35,606 bases of DNA, taken from positions 1 through 35,606 of the forward strand of contig JAHYJM010000011.1 of assembly GCA_019428945.1 (NCBI GenBank), in the 5' to 3' direction. The notes beneath the pieces are model-generated. The model did no database searches, was not told where the DNA came from, and saw only the letters and a program-made list of their open reading frames with translations. Source of the stretch: Bacillota bacterium. GTDB taxonomy: Bacteria; Bacillota; Dethiobacteria; DTU022. Both the position numbers and the translations under genes were made by a program. Numbering within the stretch: the stretch's first letter is position 1; the number at the start of each line of letters is the position of its first letter. Of the stretch, positions 13,274 through 35,481 are shown in pieces.

Positions 13274-13849
13274 TCACTGAAGAATTGGCAAGATTAGTTC
13301 CTGCATCTGTTCAAAGCTAAAAACACCTGCTTCTCCTGAGATTATTATTCCTTCACTATCAATAAAATAAAACATGGGAATATAACTAAATTGGAATTCT
13401 TCCATTTCGAGGAATCTACCTGTTTCTGATATGCTGAAATCAGCTATAATAAATTCCACCTCATCTTCATAGAAATCTATAAGAGCCATGATCACGGGCT
13501 CCATCATTACACAGGCGCCTCAGGTATCAGAATAAAACTTAATAACGATCGGCTTTCCATTAGCAAGCGCTTCATTATAAACCTTAAAAGGATTTTCTGT
13601 ATAACTAAACCCGATCTCCTCAGCAACATCTGCGTTACTGGCCTCTTTTTTTTCAGCTTCTTTTACTTCATCTTCATCATCGTCGGCAATTTGATCAGGT
13701 TCAATATTCTCTGCTTCTTTTTCTTGAACAAGGTCAACCGGATTCTCTTCAGGCGAAGTTAAAACATTCATATCAGAGTTCAGCATTAATATGACAACCA
13801 GAGCAGCAGCGATGATTATAAGCGTGATATATTTTATTTTTTTGGACAT
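13274..13849 (-). CDS. Membrane-anchored thioredoxin-like selenoprotein (in-frame UGA = Sec)
   Basis: Two frames are joined in the same phase by one TGA at 13520-13522, giving 191 residues. Order: Lys-rich start, one membrane segment (7-23), a very acidic linker (33-71), then a thioredoxin fold with IVIKFYSDT-U-GACVMMEPV, where Sec110 replaces the first Cys of the CxxC redox motif and Cys113 is the resolving Cys; P158 in FSYIPMF is the expected cis-Pro. Homologous thioredoxins have W-C-G-P-C at this place. The protein would be a thiol-disulfide reductase or oxidant defence protein facing outward. ATG 13849 has GGGAGG upstream. The sequence after UGA can fold into a bacterial SECIS-like hairpin. 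A standard gene caller would split this into a truncated protein and an orphan fragment. It stands alone, divergent from the HD-domain gene. Confidence 0.85.
13488..13507 (-). promoter_or_regulatory. Candidate bacterial SECIS hairpin
   Basis: On the minus strand ATGAT (13507-13503) pairs with ATCAT (13492-13488) around a 10-nt loop that begins GG. The loop begins 18 nt after the UGA, within the range for bacterial SECIS elements, and G in the first loop positions fits the known consensus. An alternative stem GAGCC/GGCTC (13501-13497 with 13487-13483) overlaps it. The structure lies in coding sequence as usual in bacteria. Confidence 0.55.
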
Positions 13850-14067
13850 ATATCCTCCCACAAACTTTTATAATATCTGTAATTATTATAGCATATGATA
13901 GGAAGTGATTTGCTTGCATTTAAACCGTTCTAACAAGGCAGGAAATTCAGGATCTTTACGAGAAAAGAAATATAAAGATTTCGTTGATTATCATTAGCTT
14001 TGTTTGAAACAGCTGTTAATTAGTTTGCAGTAAAATTATACCAGATGAAAGAAGTGAAATTAAAAAA

Positions 14068-22852: not shown

Positions 22853-23029
22853 AATTATCTTCCTTCCCAACCCTGTATTATTGAAGAGCCGTAATTCTCA
22901 TGTTTGCCAAAGGGCTTTTTTATTTGATCAGCACACCTTACCAACATTGTGCATGTAAACCTTGCCGGGTAACTGCATAGCAGCCCAGATTTTTATCTGA
23001 AAACATACTCTATATCCTATTGCGATCAA

Positions 23030-23152: not shown

Positions 23153-23154
23153 TT

Positions 23155-23230
23155 TGGCAACCAGGCTGTCATAGTTAAAATAAACCTTAGACCCTTGGTT
23201 TTGCGCCCCTGTCTTTCAACAGGTTTGCCA
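23155..23230 (-). ncRNA. Cyclic di-GMP-I (GEMM-I) riboswitch aptamer
   Basis: Reading the minus strand from 23230: TGGCAAACC, then a hairpin CTGT-TGAAAG-ACAG with a GAAA-type loop, GGGCGCAAAACC, AAGGGTCTAAGG, a variable stem, ATGACAGCCTGG and TTGCCA. P1 is UGGCAA/UUGCCA. These are the conserved blocks of the class I c-di-GMP aptamer (GGCAAACC, GCGCAAA.CC, GG.CUAAG, AUGACAGCC.GGUUGCC). A consensus promoter lies 39 nt upstream. Just after P1 comes GGGCTTTTTT, which with AGCCT of the aptamer's 3' part can form a terminator, so the switch probably acts on transcription. The first well-supported gene downstream is the MORN-repeat protein. Confidence 0.88.
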
Positions 23231-23268
23231 TTATCATTAGGCTCTAATACTTAGCAAATATTGATTAT

Positions 23269-24128: not shown

Positions 24129-24530
24129 CTAATTAAACTCGGCTTCAGGTCCTTCCTCATCTCCGAATGCCAATTTTTCAACTTCCAGTAATTCATGTAA
24201 ATCCGCTGCAACAGAATCATCCCAGTTACCGGTTGTTTCACGAACACGATCTGAAACCTGTTTCCAATCGGGGATAACTTCAGCATGGCCTGCCATACCG
24301 TTAAGTCGTTCTGCTTCCTTCAAAACATTGGCTGCCCTAACCATAACTTTTGAAGGCAGGCAGGCATAGTATGGACACTCTCCTCCGACAAGAGAGGCTT
24401 CTATGCCAACTACATTCAGACCGGCATCGAGCAGTTGAAGAGAAAGATCTTCCCCACAAGATCCTACCCCAAGGATGATAACATCAACAGTAGCGTTAAC
24501 TTTAAGATTCTCTTTGCCGGTTGTACCCAT
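24129..24530 (-). pseudogene. Truncated FAD/NAD(P)-dependent disulfide oxidoreductase (mercuric reductase/lipoamide dehydrogenase type)
   Basis: Only 133 residues remain of a family that normally has about 450-480. The FAD-binding start VIILGVGSCGEDLSLQLLDA, the redox-active disulfide GGECPYYACLPSK and the following helix are kept, up to GNWDDSVAADL; then the sequence becomes an acidic tail and stops with TAG. The NAD(P)-binding and dimerisation domains are absent, and no good continuation was found in the other frames down to 24065. A strong ribosome site (GAGGGGG) precedes the ATG, 43 bp after the copper ATPase gene, so it was probably its operon partner. It may be a decayed gene or, less likely, a stand-alone short protein. 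Confidence 0.7.
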
Positions 24531-24573: not shown

Positions 24574-26646
24574 TCAAAGCTTCCCACGCCTGAGCAGTTG
24601 CGCATTAAGGGCAACAATAACAGTGCTGGCAGACATTACGACTGCTCCCAGAGCCATAGGCATAACAAATCCGAAAGGTGCAAGGACTCCTGCCGCGAGT
24701 GGAATAGCCAGCAGGTTATAACCTGTTGCCCAGGCCAGGTTTTGAATCATTTTACTATAAACCCTTTTTGAAAGAGTAATTAAACGGACAACATCACGCG
24801 GATCGTTTTTGACCAGGATAATTCCTGCCGATTCAACAGCCACATCTGTTCCGGCTCCGATAGCCAGCCCGATGTCAGCTAGAACAAGGGCAGGAGCATC
24901 GTTAACGCCATCCCCTACCATGGCAACTGTGTAACCGTCTCCTTTTAGCTTTTCAATAATTTCGGCCTTGTTTTCCGGCAAAATTTCAGCGTAAACATCC
25001 GAAATTTCCAACTCTTTAGCTGCACTTTCTGCTGCTTCCCTGCTGTCACCAGTGAGTATTACAACCTTTATACCAGACTGTTGAAGTTCTTTAACTGCTT
25101 CCAGCGATTCCGGACGAACCCTATCACTAAAAGAAAGGTAGCCGGCAATATGGTTATCAGCAATAATGTACACCAATCCATGACCGCTTTTAGCAGCTTC
25201 TTCATCAATAACCGATATATCCTCACGCGTGTCTGTCAGTTCAAGTTTTTCAAGCAGGTTGGGCCCACCGGCATATATAGTTTTTCCTTCAATGACAGCC
25301 TTGATGCCACGGCCGGGCAAAGCAGTAAAAGAATCTGAATCAGGCAGGTTCAAATTACGGTTTTTCGCTTCTTTGACAATTGACTGGGCAATGCTGTGTT
25401 CTGAGTCTTTCTCTGCAGATGCCGCCAGTCGGAGCAGCTCGTCTTCACTGAGTGTTTTATCCAAAGATTTTATGCCGGCCAGACCCAGTTCGCCACTGGT
25501 TAAAGTACCGGTTTTATCAAAGACAACACAATTTACCAGGCGTGCTTTTTCAAGAGCCAGGCGATCTTTAACCAGTAAGCCATTTCGGGCGGCAATGGTA
25601 GTTGAAATGGCTATAACCAGGGGAATAGCCAAACCAAGGGCATGGGGGCAGGCAATAACAAGCACAGTTACTACACGTTCCATAATAAAGACCGACCCGG
25701 CCCCGAACAACACCCAAACGAAAGCAGTGATCAGGGCTGCGCTTAGAGCAATAATCGTCAGGTAAAAAGCAGCCCTGTCAGCAAGGATCTGAGTTCGTGA
25801 ACGAGATGTCTGCGCTTTTTCAACAAGGCGCATAATCCCGGCCAGAACAGTATCACCGGCCGTTTCCTGCACCTCGACACGCAGAGAGCCGTCTTCGTTA
25901 AGTGAACCGGCAATAACATGATCTCCGGTTTTTTTCGGGATTGGCCTTGACTCACCGGTTATTACTGCCTCATTAACATATGATTCCCCGCGGATTACTT
26001 TTCCATCAGCTGGCAAACTGCTACCCGGTCTTACAAGCACTACATCTCCGGGTTTAAGACTATCAACAGATACTTCTTCCTCACCGTCAGCGGTAATGAC
26101 TACTGCAGTATCGGGGATTAGCTTTGCCAGTTCCTGTAAAGCTCCATGAGCCCTGGTAACAGCATTCATTTCTATCCAGTGGCCCAGAAGCATAATCGTA
26201 ACAAGTGTGGCTAACTCCCAGAATATCTCTTCCCCGGGTAGGCCAAATGTTACCAGAACACTGTATATATAGGCAACCGATATGGCTAAACTAATCAGGG
26301 TCATCATTCCCGGACGGCGTGTCTTCAATTCATTTACAGCACTGTTGATAAAAACGATTCCGCCGTAAAAAAAGATCACTGTACTAAAAATAAAAGGGAT
26401 TAATTGAGAACCGGGAAACTGGGGAGGATGAAAGTTGAACCATTGTTGAATATGGTGGCTGTAGATTAAAACCGGAACTGTAAGAACAAGGGATAGCCAG
26501 AAGCGCTTTTTAAACATGTCAGGAGAGTGGGCGCTGTGCCCGGCATGATTTGAATGATTAGCATGTTCAGAAGTTCCGGCACCTACGTCCGCCTGGCTGT
26601 TGTGCATGCTATTATCTTCAGAATGATGGTGTTCACTATTTTTCAT
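24574..26646 (-). CDS. copB: CopB-type copper-transporting P1B-ATPase
   Basis: The 690-residue protein has a His-rich N-terminal tail (about 25% His or polar in the first 45 residues) instead of a CxxC metal-binding domain, then eight membrane helices. The ion-path motif is CPHALGLA (CPH, group P1B-3), the phosphorylation site is DKTGTLTSG, and the hinge is MVGDGVNDAPAL; a TGES actuator loop is seen as VITGESRP. The CPH and His-rich tail indicate copper export, as in CopB of Enterococcus and Archaeoglobus. ATG 26646 has AAGGAGG upstream. The truncated flavoprotein follows in the same direction. No copper chaperone or CopY gene is adjacent. Confidence 0.92.
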   Translation of the reverse strand: MKNSEHHHSEDNSMHNSQADVGAGTSEHANHSNHAGHSAHSPDMFKKRFWLSLVLTVPVLIYSHHIQQWFNFHPPQFPGSQLIPFIFSTVIFFYGGIVFINSAVNELKTRRPGMMTLISLAISVAYIYSVLVTFGLPGEEIFWELATLVTIMLLGHWIEMNAVTRAHGALQELAKLIPDTAVVITADGEEEVSVDSLKPGDVVLVRPGSSLPADGKVIRGESYVNEAVITGESRPIPKKTGDHVIAGSLNEDGSLRVEVQETAGDTVLAGIMRLVEKAQTSRSRTQILADRAAFYLTIIALSAALITAFVWVLFGAGSVFIMERVVTVLVIACPHALGLAIPLVIAISTTIAARNGLLVKDRLALEKARLVNCVVFDKTGTLTSGELGLAGIKSLDKTLSEDELLRLAASAEKDSEHSIAQSIVKEAKNRNLNLPDSDSFTALPGRGIKAVIEGKTIYAGGPNLLEKLELTDTREDISVIDEEAAKSGHGLVYIIADNHIAGYLSFSDRVRPESLEAVKELQQSGIKVVILTGDSREAAESAAKELEISDVYAEILPENKAEIIEKLKGDGYTVAMVGDGVNDAPALVLADIGLAIGAGTDVAVESAGIILVKNDPRDVVRLITLSKRVYSKMIQNLAWATGYNLLAIPLAAGVLAPFGFVMPMALGAVVMSASTVIVALNAQLLRRGKL

Positions 26647-32468: not shown

Positions 32469-33068
32469 ATGACAGGTAATAAGATTAACGAAATCGATAA
32501 GAAAGAACAGTTTACAAAGAGAGCCAGCAATAAGTTGCCCATAATTATGGCAATAGTTGCCATTGCAGCGGTTATGATTTTCGGTGCGATGCTGTTATTC
32601 AATGATTCAAATGAACAGGCTATTGTTTCACCTTTTGGGGAACCGACAGCTAAAACAAGATCGTACATGGGCAAAGTTGTCTCAATGACAATTGTAGAGC
32701 CGGTTATAAGCACTACCCTGGCCGGTATCCCCCTGGAACAGCTTGAGAAAAATGATATTGTCTATTTCGAAGTGGAAAATTCCGATGGTCTTATGGTTCC
32801 CCTGATGGCATACATCACTCCGACAGGTCGAATTTTCACCGGCAGCAGCATGTGTGAACCATGCCAGGGAAGATATTTCTCACTGGCCGGAGAAACGCTA
32901 GTCTGTGACACTTGCCGAACCACATACACCATTGAAAGCCATGAATTTATTTCAGGCTCTGTTACATGCGGCGCTTATCCCCCGGTTTACATGGAACCGG
33001 TTATTGACAATAAGATGGTCAGCATCCCCCTTGAAGATATTTTTCAATGGAAAACAAGGGTATATTAG
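32469..33068 (+). CDS. DUF2318-type membrane-anchored Cys-rich (Fe-S-like) protein
   Basis: The 199-residue protein has a single N-terminal membrane helix (residues 23-43) and an outside domain with C129-x2-C132, C146-x2-C149 and C167 in the order SMCEPCQGRYF, LVCDTCRTTY and VTCGAYPP. This matches the C-terminal, metal- or cluster-binding part of DUF2318/FtrD-like proteins. In Campylobacter and enteric FTR1/P19 iron-import clusters a DUF2318 protein stands next to FtsX-like ABC permeases, as here (established family context). The role is probably electron transfer or metal handling at the outer face of the membrane. The ribosome site GGGAGG lies a little far (12 nt) from the ATG. Confidence 0.75.
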   Translation: MTGNKINEIDKKEQFTKRASNKLPIIMAIVAIAAVMIFGAMLLFNDSNEQAIVSPFGEPTAKTRSYMGKVVSMTIVEPVISTTLAGIPLEQLEKNDIVYFEVENSDGLMVPLMAYITPTGRIFTGSSMCEPCQGRYFSLAGETLVCDTCRTTYTIESHEFISGSVTCGAYPPVYMEPVIDNKMVSIPLEDIFQWKTRVY

Positions 33069-33091
33069 GGTTTATTAAGGAGGCCAATTTA

Positions 33092-33502
33092 ATGACTGAA
33101 AATAATGTTTCAAATAATGACAACAGTACTGGTAAAAACAAGACGCCCAAACAAAAGATCTTCAGCAAACTGATATTGAGCACATTAATTGTTGTGGCTG
33201 CTCTGACGATTTTAATAATGGTTAACAATCAGCTATCGGCACGCACATCCTCATCACTAAATAATAATCCGGTATTTGCAGGAGGTTCCTGCTGCAGAAC
33301 CGGTAACAGTACGGCCGGCGGTGAAAACCAACTGGCAATTAGCGCACTTAACTACTACAGGGATAATTACGAAGAAACTGAAGGACTTACTGCAAGAGTG
33401 GATGATTTCGGTTGTCATCAGGAAATCAGTATCTCCCGCAACGGGATAGAAGTCAGGCGATTTGGATTCAGCAATGGAACATTTTATGAAATCACTCCTT
33501 AA
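33092..33502 (+). CDS. Small membrane protein with vicinal Cys pair, unknown family
   Basis: The 136-residue protein begins at ATG 33092, after AAGGAGG; a longer frame to 33047 overlaps the preceding gene and is less likely. It has one membrane helix (about 25-45), then FAGGSCCRTGNS with C67-C68, and DDFGCHQE with C108 in a small domain that ends FYEITP. The three cysteines and His109 could bind a metal on the outside of the cell. I do not recognise the family. It lies between the DUF2318 gene and the FtsX-like permease in one direction and probably belongs to the same transport system. Confidence 0.7.
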   Translation: MTENNVSNNDNSTGKNKTPKQKIFSKLILSTLIVVAALTILIMVNNQLSARTSSSLNNNPVFAGGSCCRTGNSTAGGENQLAISALNYYRDNYEETEGLTARVDDFGCHQEISISRNGIEVRRFGFSNGTFYEITP

Positions 33503-33523
33503 TAAAATCGTGAGGGACAAAAT

Positions 33524-34723
33524 ATGAACCTTTACTCAATTGCTCTAAATAATATTGCCCGGCGGAAAAAGAGGATGCTTCTAATTCTATTTGGACTAAT
33601 GACTGGAATTGCCATTACAGTGGCTCTTTTCATGATAGTTGAATCAATGCGCCTGGCATTAGGGGATCAAATTGATGAATTCGGAGCTAATATAGTGATA
33701 GTGCCACGTGCCGAAGGAATGGATATAAGCTATGGCGGTACAAATGTTACCAGGGCTTCTGTTGATATAAACCAGTTAACTGAATCGGATCTGGAGTTAA
33801 TCAGTACTATTCCGGATTATAACAGTATTAATCTGATTTCACCAAAATTAGTTGCAGCTGTGTCAGCTAATGATCGTGATGTTATACTCGTTGGAGTACA
33901 ACCCGAACGTGAATTTATCATGAAACCATGGTTTTCACTAAGCGATCAGGCCGGACTTCCCGCCGGGGCATCTCCGGATGATCTGGCTCTGATCAAGCTT
34001 GCTGAAAATAGCTTAATTGCCGGTGCTGATACAGCCCGCAAACTAATGCTTGAAGCAGGCGACGAAGTAATTGTAAACGGCACCTTATTTATTATTGCTG
34101 CTGTAATCAGCCCTCTTGGCTCTGTGGAAGATGGTCTGCTTTACGGAAATCTTGATGCGGTTCAGAACCTGCTCGGCAGACAGGGAGAGATCTCAATGAT
34201 CGAAATCTCTGCATACTGCAACACCTGCCCCATTGAGGATATAGCCGCTCAGCTGAGTGAAGCAATTCCTGGCGGAAGAGTTACAGCATTACGCCAGGCT
34301 GCATTGCTCAGAGAAGAAACTATTAATAAATTCTCAACTTTTTCCATCCTTATCTCTACGGTGGTTCTGATCATTGCTGCGCTGCTGGTTTTAACCACGA
34401 CGATGGCCTCGGTTCATGAACGTACCCGTGAAATAGGCATTTTCAGGGCAATAGGCTTTCGCGGCAGCAATGTGTTGACAGTTATCTTACTTGAAGCTGG
34501 AATAACAGGTTTATCAGGTGGAATTATCGGTTATGTCGTGGGCAGTATCATAGCCCTGAATTTTGGTTCATATCTTACCGGGAATAATATTCCGGTTTTC
34601 TGGCAAGCTAATCTAATTGCCCCTGCAATGCTGCTTGCTTTGTTAATAACTATAACTGCAGCAGCTTATCCTGCATACAGGGCTGCCAGCCTGGACCCGG
34701 CAGAAGCGCTGCGATTTATCTAA
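33524..34723 (+). CDS. FtsX/MacB-type ABC transporter permease
   Basis: The 399-residue protein has the MacB/FtsX topology: one helix near the N-terminus (18-40), a large outside domain (about 45-270) and three C-terminal helices with FSILISTVVLIIAALLVL, TREIGIFRAIGF (the coupling segment that contacts the ATPase) and DPAEALRF at the end. The periplasmic-type domain contains AYCNTCPIED, a CxxC that may bind metal or take part in redox chemistry. It is followed by its ATPase 14 bp later and by a second permease. By neighbourhood it resembles the Cj1661-Cj1663 / FetBCD type module that supports iron uptake. Confidence 0.88.
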   Translation: MNLYSIALNNIARRKKRMLLILFGLMTGIAITVALFMIVESMRLALGDQIDEFGANIVIVPRAEGMDISYGGTNVTRASVDINQLTESDLELISTIPDYNSINLISPKLVAAVSANDRDVILVGVQPEREFIMKPWFSLSDQAGLPAGASPDDLALIKLAENSLIAGADTARKLMLEAGDEVIVNGTLFIIAAVISPLGSVEDGLLYGNLDAVQNLLGRQGEISMIEISAYCNTCPIEDIAAQLSEAIPGGRVTALRQAALLREETINKFSTFSILISTVVLIIAALLVLTTTMASVHERTREIGIFRAIGFRGSNVLTVILLEAGITGLSGGIIGYVVGSIIALNFGSYLTGNNIPVFWQANLIAPAMLLALLITITAAAYPAYRAASLDPAEALRFI

Positions 34724-34737
34724 TCGGGAGGTTAATG

Positions 34738-35481
34738 ATGAAAAATATACTTATTAAAATAGATAAAATACGCAAAACATATAACTCCGGCAGCACAGCA
34801 GTTAATGCACTACAGGATATTTCACTGAATATATCCAGGGGAGAAGCTGCAGCAATTATGGGGCCCTCCGGTTCGGGGAAAAGTACTCTGCTCAGCATTA
34901 TCGGAGGGTTAAATCAACCAACAGAAGGAAAAATATTAATTGATGGTATCGATCTCTATTCTCTGTCGAGGGAAAAACGGGCAGATTTCCGCAGAGAATA
35001 TCTCGGCTTCGTTTTTCAGCAGTTCCAGCTGATACCATATCTGAACGCCCTGGAAAATGTTATGCTTCCACTTACGACAACCCGTTACACATCAAAACAG
35101 AAACGTGATATGGCCACGCACGCCCTGCACCGGGTCAATATGGATACAAAAGCAAATCGATTGCCCAACCAGCTTTCAGGAGGAGAACAGGAGAGAATAG
35201 CGATAGCCAGAGCTGTTGTAAACGAACCGCCTTTAATATTAGCCGATGAGCCTACAGGCAGTCTGGATACAAAAACTTCGGAAGAGATTATGGGTCTCTT
35301 CAGAAATTTGAATGAAAGCGGGCTGACCCTGTTAATGGTTACCCATAATCCAGAGAATACAGCTTACATGAACCGCACCATCACTATGCAGGACGGTATG
35401 CTGATTAGCGGTAGAAAAAACACTATAGCAACAAACTCTTTACCATTTTCCATTAATGAAAGCGCTGGTGTTACAAGATGA
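34738..35481 (+). CDS. LolD/MacB-type ABC transporter ATP-binding protein
   Basis: The 247-residue protein starts at ATG 34738 (or 34735; GGGAGG is 6 or 3 nt upstream). It carries Walker A GPSGSGKST, Q-loop VFQQFQLIPYLNA, signature LSGGEQERIAIARA, Walker B LILADEPTGSLD and the switch His in MVTHNPE. The sequence is typical of the MacB/LolD group that works with FtsX-type permeases, coupling ATP hydrolysis to conformational work rather than classic import. A C-terminal tail of about 25 residues has no known function. It overlaps the next permease gene by 4 bp (ATGA). Confidence 0.94.
   Translation: MKNILIKIDKIRKTYNSGSTAVNALQDISLNISRGEAAAIMGPSGSGKSTLLSIIGGLNQPTEGKILIDGIDLYSLSREKRADFRREYLGFVFQQFQLIPYLNALENVMLPLTTTRYTSKQKRDMATHALHRVNMDTKANRLPNQLSGGEQERIAIARAVVNEPPLILADEPTGSLDTKTSEEIMGLFRNLNESGLTLLMVTHNPENTAYMNRTITMQDGMLISGRKNTIATNSLPFSINESAGVTR

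Follow-up and report, generated by a model that had tools for sequence, protein, structure and literature searches.

The window, by which we mean the whole 35,606-nucleotide stretch of Bacillota bacterium DNA analyzed here, carries on its minus strand (13274–13849) what we take to be a complete selenoprotein gene for a membrane-anchored thioredoxin. Translation with one in-frame TGA read as selenocysteine (Sec, U) gives a protein of 191 amino acids, and the 191 codons are followed by a terminal TGA (13274–13276) that is read as the stop. The start ATG lies at 13849–13847, with a GGGAGGA ribosome-binding site (Shine-Dalgarno) upstream at 13859–13853. We estimate the probability that the product is a selenocysteine thioredoxin at about 0.93. 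As the original prediction anticipated, ordinary gene callers miss this product: ORF calling with translation Table 11 stops at the UGA and gives 113 amino acids only. Because automatic annotation ends the protein at the active site, gene catalogues lack the thioredoxin domain of a family that occurs in many Firmicutes.

Domain organization and active site

From its N terminus the protein has a single membrane helix, then a 61-residue acidic linker and, at the C-terminal end, the thioredoxin (Trx) domain, a layout that agrees with the membrane anchor and highly acidic linker initially proposed. The transmembrane helix was assigned to residues 5–23 (13781–13837, minus strand), directly after MSKK, on a hydropathy of 2.74 and positive-inside residues; in the AlphaFold2 model a helix spans residues 3–28. 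The predicted topology is N-in/C-out, and we place the thioredoxin domain outside because positive residues precede the helix, acidic residues follow it, and some relatives bear a lipobox. The linker (residues 24–84; 13598–13780, minus strand) has a net charge of -17, and its low model confidence indicates that it is probably disordered.

The thioredoxin fold of residues 85–191 (13277–13597, minus strand) is well supported by Pfam, AlphaFold2 and Foldseek. The PF00085 match spans residues 91–167 (E 6.6e-10; 39.4 bits against a gathering cut-off of 23.5) and crosses the UGA, in keeping with the earlier claim of homology on both sides in the same frame. In the structural model the domain has pLDDT values mostly above 90 and Sec110 sits just ahead of the first active-site helix; the top Foldseek matches are thioredoxins (E about 2e-7, probability 1.00).

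The in-frame UGA (13520–13522, minus strand) corresponds to Sec110, the first redox residue of U-G-A-C in the context T-U-G-A-C, an assignment based on conservation of the TGA and the active-site alignment. Frame and alignment agree that this single TGA replaces the first Cys of the thioredoxin CxxC, as had been proposed. Cys113 (13511–13513, minus strand) is identified by sequence and alignment as the resolving residue, and the proposed cis-Pro, Pro158 (13376–13378, minus strand), is present as a candidate in a conserved Y-I-P. Neither the redox pair nor Y-I-P158 varies in the alignment, and the protein thus has both the [C/U]xxC motif and the cis-Pro that PF00085 calls for.

Conservation of the UGA codon among relatives

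The presence of the TGA at the active site of relatives is well supported. A search of 43 genomes of the family returned 32 matches, each with exactly one TGA (32/32), and in all 29 distinct sequences that were read the TGA is the first residue of a UxxC motif, mostly USAC. Seven of the eight stand-alone (type-1) proteins have Thr before Sec, instead of the Trp of thioredoxins. When 398 genomes of the phylum were searched with a profile, the family proved widespread; most members have one TGA and some have an ordinary Cys, such as the CPAC forms in relatives L113, L116 and L117. More distant Firmicutes relatives thus have either U or C at the position. In every close relative the UGA occupies this residue, and the Cys found there in other members is redox-active; the original prediction withstood this check. 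No relatives were found in the viral contigs and plasmids searched.

A stop codon in one MAG, and nothing more, speaks for a pseudogene, in which a Cys codon has truly mutated to a stop, or for a fault of sequencing or assembly. The family matches come from separate MAGs and share the same TGA, homology and frame run on to the normal end of the gene, and the codons of the hairpin described below are frozen. We consider such an origin very improbable and, because the TGA is conserved in relatives, already refuted.

A conserved bSECIS-like hairpin

The hairpin that had been noticed after the UGA is indeed present at 13482–13502 (minus strand), and the support for it is comparative instead of coming from single-sequence folding. 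This 21-nt element, GGAGCCCGUG(N5)GGCUCU, starts 17 nt after the UGA and has the form GGAGCC-CGUGAUCAU-GGCUCU, with a 6-bp stem and a 9-nt loop that bears GU at positions 2–3 and lies 23 nt after the UGA. The published bSECIS model describes a loop of 3–9 nt, a stem of 4–16 bp, a G in the first two loop positions and a loop 16–37 nt after the UGA, with an MFE at or below -7.5 kcal/mol (PMC13188914). The stem, the loop with its G at position 2 and the spacing of our hairpin conform to this model; the energy of the hairpin itself, -7.2 kcal/mol, just misses the cut-off. When a 55-nt segment was folded as a single sequence, the MFE of -11.3 belonged to another structure, with z = -0.03, and the hairpin is not thermodynamically exceptional. 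In a gathering-threshold Rfam scan of the window no SECIS family was matched.

Comparison with relatives is more informative. At synonymous sites the hairpin codons are fixed: Glu is GAG in 29/29 sequences (background 25%), Pro is CCC in 29/29 (14%), Val is GTG in 29/29 (17%) and Ala is GCT in 27/29 (27%). The flanking codons vary much more in the same 29 family sequences (Mann-Whitney p = 0.0024, which is not an independent-sample probability because the sequences are related). The same hairpin is seen again in distant Firmicutes of many families, and in relative L118 a hairpin at the same position has another stem sequence that still pairs (AUCCCGC-GGU-GCGGGAU), which we read as the clearest individual example of compensatory change in the stem. 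The Cys orthologues L113 and L116 lack the hairpin, their stem-encoding MEP having become MKP. One stem pair is broken in two type-2 relatives (L042 and L043), a seventh pair (27–35) occurs in just 5 of 19 sequences, and covariation is thin because the stem sequence is nearly invariant.

The 2.36-Mb genome contains the pattern TGA-N6-TGY-N9-hairpin at exactly two sites and a reversed control contains none; no bSECIS-like hairpin pattern follows the terminal TGA of the gene. The argument for a bSECIS is thus a comparative one, since synonymous sites are frozen, the hairpin recurs and it is lost in Cys forms, and folding of the lone sequence gives it no support; on these grounds its conservation as a putative bSECIS is well supported. 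The string GGAGCCCGUG-N5-GGCUCU provides a strong and directly searchable bSECIS signature, and Cys forms without the hairpin are available for contrast.

Selenocysteine machinery of the genome

A genome without Sec insertion machinery would have spoken against the original prediction; this one has selA, selB, selD and a tRNA-Sec. The selA (599 bits), selB (404.5) and selD (369.9) matches, each above its curated cut-off, lie side by side on contig C35, and the tRNA-Sec with a UCA anticodon is on contig C87. The selD gene (L010, G000:C35:11152-12078) contains one in-frame TGA, so SelD is probably a selenoprotein itself.

Across the 398-genome phylum sample, selA is present in 34 of the 35 genomes with the TGA form, compared with 257 of all 398 genomes (Fisher p = 3e-6); the thirty-fifth, 75% complete, has selB and no selA match. 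Within the family, selA and selB were not found at the thresholds used in four MAGs with TGA forms (G002, G003, G009 and G031), of which G031 is 97% complete. Missing contigs are the simplest reason for these four cases, because sel genes cluster.

The machinery also bears on whether UGA has been reassigned throughout the genome, for example to Trp or Gly, so that it would encode something other than Sec. We found no point in support of this proposal, and it would have to accommodate a gene that itself ends at TGA, SelA, SelB and SelD alongside a tRNA-Sec with a UCA anticodon, and homologues with Cys at the aligned position; it is extremely improbable. Taken together, conservation, the machinery and the TGA-ended gene lead us to reject pseudogene, sequencing error and reassignment alike. 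In the reading that we favor, SelB with Sec-tRNA-Sec would decode the UGA at 13522–13520 as selenocysteine under the direction of the bSECIS hairpin directly 3' of it, and the second TGA, where the hairpin pattern is absent, would terminate translation. From the sequence we infer actual Sec insertion at UGA110.

Stand-alone proteins and a Sec-Trx-CcdA fusion

The second match to the genomic pattern, at C13:5990 (L122 3991, G000), joins a Sec-Trx domain in frame to a downstream CcdA/DsbD transmembrane domain and has the same bSECIS. This fusion is the only CcdA/DsbD_TM protein found in the genome and lies on a different contig from the stand-alone gene. The relatives likewise fall into two types, stand-alone proteins with a long acidic linker (eight read) and Trx-CcdA fusions (type 2, about 20), which separate in 98% of bootstrap trees, the tree comprising 102 columns only. 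Fusions such as that on C13 share with the stand-alone protein a homologous Sec-Trx domain (47% identity), the type of active site and the bSECIS; unlike it, they have a C-terminal CcdA/DsbD transmembrane domain, a short linker and a place in a separate tree group. The fusion and stand-alone genes are diverged paralogues. Every type-2 relative with enough sequence has a CcdA motif, and in 14 of the 25 more distant Firmicutes relatives such a motif is fused to the Sec-Trx gene or follows it directly; none was found in the flanks read of the window's gene or of the other stand-alone genes.

The layout of the protein had been called unusual, and this holds for one of its two elements. Linkers of the stand-alone type are 48–76 residues long with a net charge of -15 to -27, and among the sequences read the long acidic form is special to these eight proteins; those of the fusions measure 17–39 residues, and those of relatives in other families 7–33 residues and are about neutral. 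A membrane anchor, on the other hand, is usual in the Firmicutes homologues that were read; three relatives (L026, L027 and L030) have a lipobox Cys in place of the helix.

This conservation pattern is relevant to whether the UGA could act as a switch, so that scarce selenium would lead to termination and a short acidic peptide anchored in the membrane, and readthrough to the enzyme. Sec UGAs are leaky in general, and a truncated product would keep the anchor, the linker and only the first part of the Trx domain. However, we see no sign of selection on such a product, as the sequence of the linker is not conserved among relatives and its charge alone is kept, and we regard a switch as decidedly unlikely.

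Proposed function and comparison with known systems

We favor a selenocysteine enzyme made in full, an extracytoplasmic thioredoxin that would be tethered to the membrane by its one N-terminal helix and long acidic linker. The gene is in no operon with redox genes. Its recurrent neighbors are limited to an HD-domain gene (relative L124) and PEPCK (relative L129), and the neighborhood therefore gives no clue to the substrate. Most likely the Trx domain acts as a reductase in which the Sec110 selenolate attacks an oxidized extracytoplasmic partner and Cys113 resolves the intermediate; candidate partners would be a disulfide, a sulfenate or a methionine-sulfoxide enzyme. Electrons would most likely pass from cytosolic thioredoxin to the Sec-Trx-CcdA fusion, the likely donor, and from there to the tethered Sec-Trx, in a Sec-to-Sec relay across the membrane.

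A precedent for such a path is the pneumococcal CcdA1/2-Etrx1/2-MsrAB2 system, in which electrons run from cytosolic thioredoxin through CcdA and a surface thioredoxin to a repair enzyme (PMC3914529). The likeness lies in surface-anchored thioredoxin-fold proteins fed by CcdA, the mode that we propose here; the Etrx proteins differ in using Cys instead of Sec and in being TlpA-type lipoproteins, and they have an Msr partner (PMC3914529), for which no counterpart was identified here. Our best model is an extracytoplasmic selenothioredoxin reductase, probably fed by the CcdA fusion in the manner of CcdA-Etrx.

The direction of electron flow in this model deserves comment, as the protein might instead be an extracytoplasmic oxidase or isomerase (DsbA/DsbC-like), or a peroxide or metal(loid) reductase, and not a thioredoxin reductase supplied by CcdA. 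Thr in place of the thioredoxin Trp before Sec in seven of the eight type-1 proteins would fit such a role, as would a stand-alone gene whose flanks, as far as they were read, hold no linked CcdA. On the other hand, the protein matches the Trx family and has in Y-I-cisPro the Trx-type Ile before the cis-Pro, and its homologues adjoin or are fused to CcdA, a reductive electron carrier. These features argue for a reductive flow, and we think the oxidase, isomerase and peroxide or metal(loid) reductase roles unlikely.

Sec-containing thioredoxins (PF00085, UxxC) are a catalogued and experimentally verified family of prokaryotic selenoproteins (PMC13188914, PMC9312934), with entries from Carboxydothermus, Geobacter and Treponema (PMC1794560). 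The window's protein resembles them in its thioredoxin domain, in a redox motif with Sec first and Cys second, and in a downstream bSECIS, and differs from them, as far as their descriptions allow comparison, in its N-terminal anchor and 61-residue acidic linker. As Sec-Trx is already established, the gene adds a well-supported member with an unusual layout, and what would be novel is the two-step selenium relay. In the literature searched, of which coverage was partial, we found no description of a Sec-Trx-CcdA fusion or of a paired relay.

No NCBIfam model names the family of this protein, and the best matches are far under their cut-offs. Classical TrxA (TIGR01068 equivalog) was rejected at 27.1 bits against a cut-off of 96.8, and a membrane anchor contrasts with the soluble cytoplasmic TrxA. 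The DsbD-related TsoB, a rhodanese-DsbD fusion-like selenoprotein (NF045694), has Sec and is similar in its Trx fold and DsbD-type relay; membership was rejected at 18.9 bits against 805.

The closest named relatives of the organism are 'Syntrophomonadaceae bacterium' MAGs, and several of these bear isolate names that match data sets from the sediments studied in a hypersaline soda lake (PMC6146748); a haloalkaliphilic anaerobe of that group is thus likely. The long acidic linker may be a tether adapted to salty, alkaline surroundings. We put forward, tentatively and at somewhat less than an even chance, an all-selenium trans-membrane reducing relay in which the Sec-Trx-CcdA fusion feeds a second, tethered surface Sec-thioredoxin, with an acidic tether suiting a high-salt, high-pH brine. 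If this is true, a single electron path outside the cytoplasm would make use of selenium twice, and Sec use at high pH would be open to experiment in such organisms.

Other features of the window

The sole match in the Rfam scan was a c-di-GMP-I riboswitch aptamer at 23153–23239 (minus strand; 90.9 bits), upstream of a gene for a MORN-repeat protein at 22870–21521 (minus strand), a pairing that suggests c-di-GMP control of the MORN protein. An ORF at 24129–24530 (minus strand; 133 amino acids) covers no more than the N-terminal portion of a pyridine nucleotide-disulphide oxidoreductase and looks truncated or frameshifted; it adjoins a heavy-metal P-type ATPase at 24574–26646 (minus strand). 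On the plus strand, a row of genes at 32469–35481 may form a metal/redox transport cluster; it encodes a membrane protein resembling FtrD (PF10080), a small protein with Cys that has no Pfam match (33047–33502), an FtsX-like permease and an ABC ATPase.
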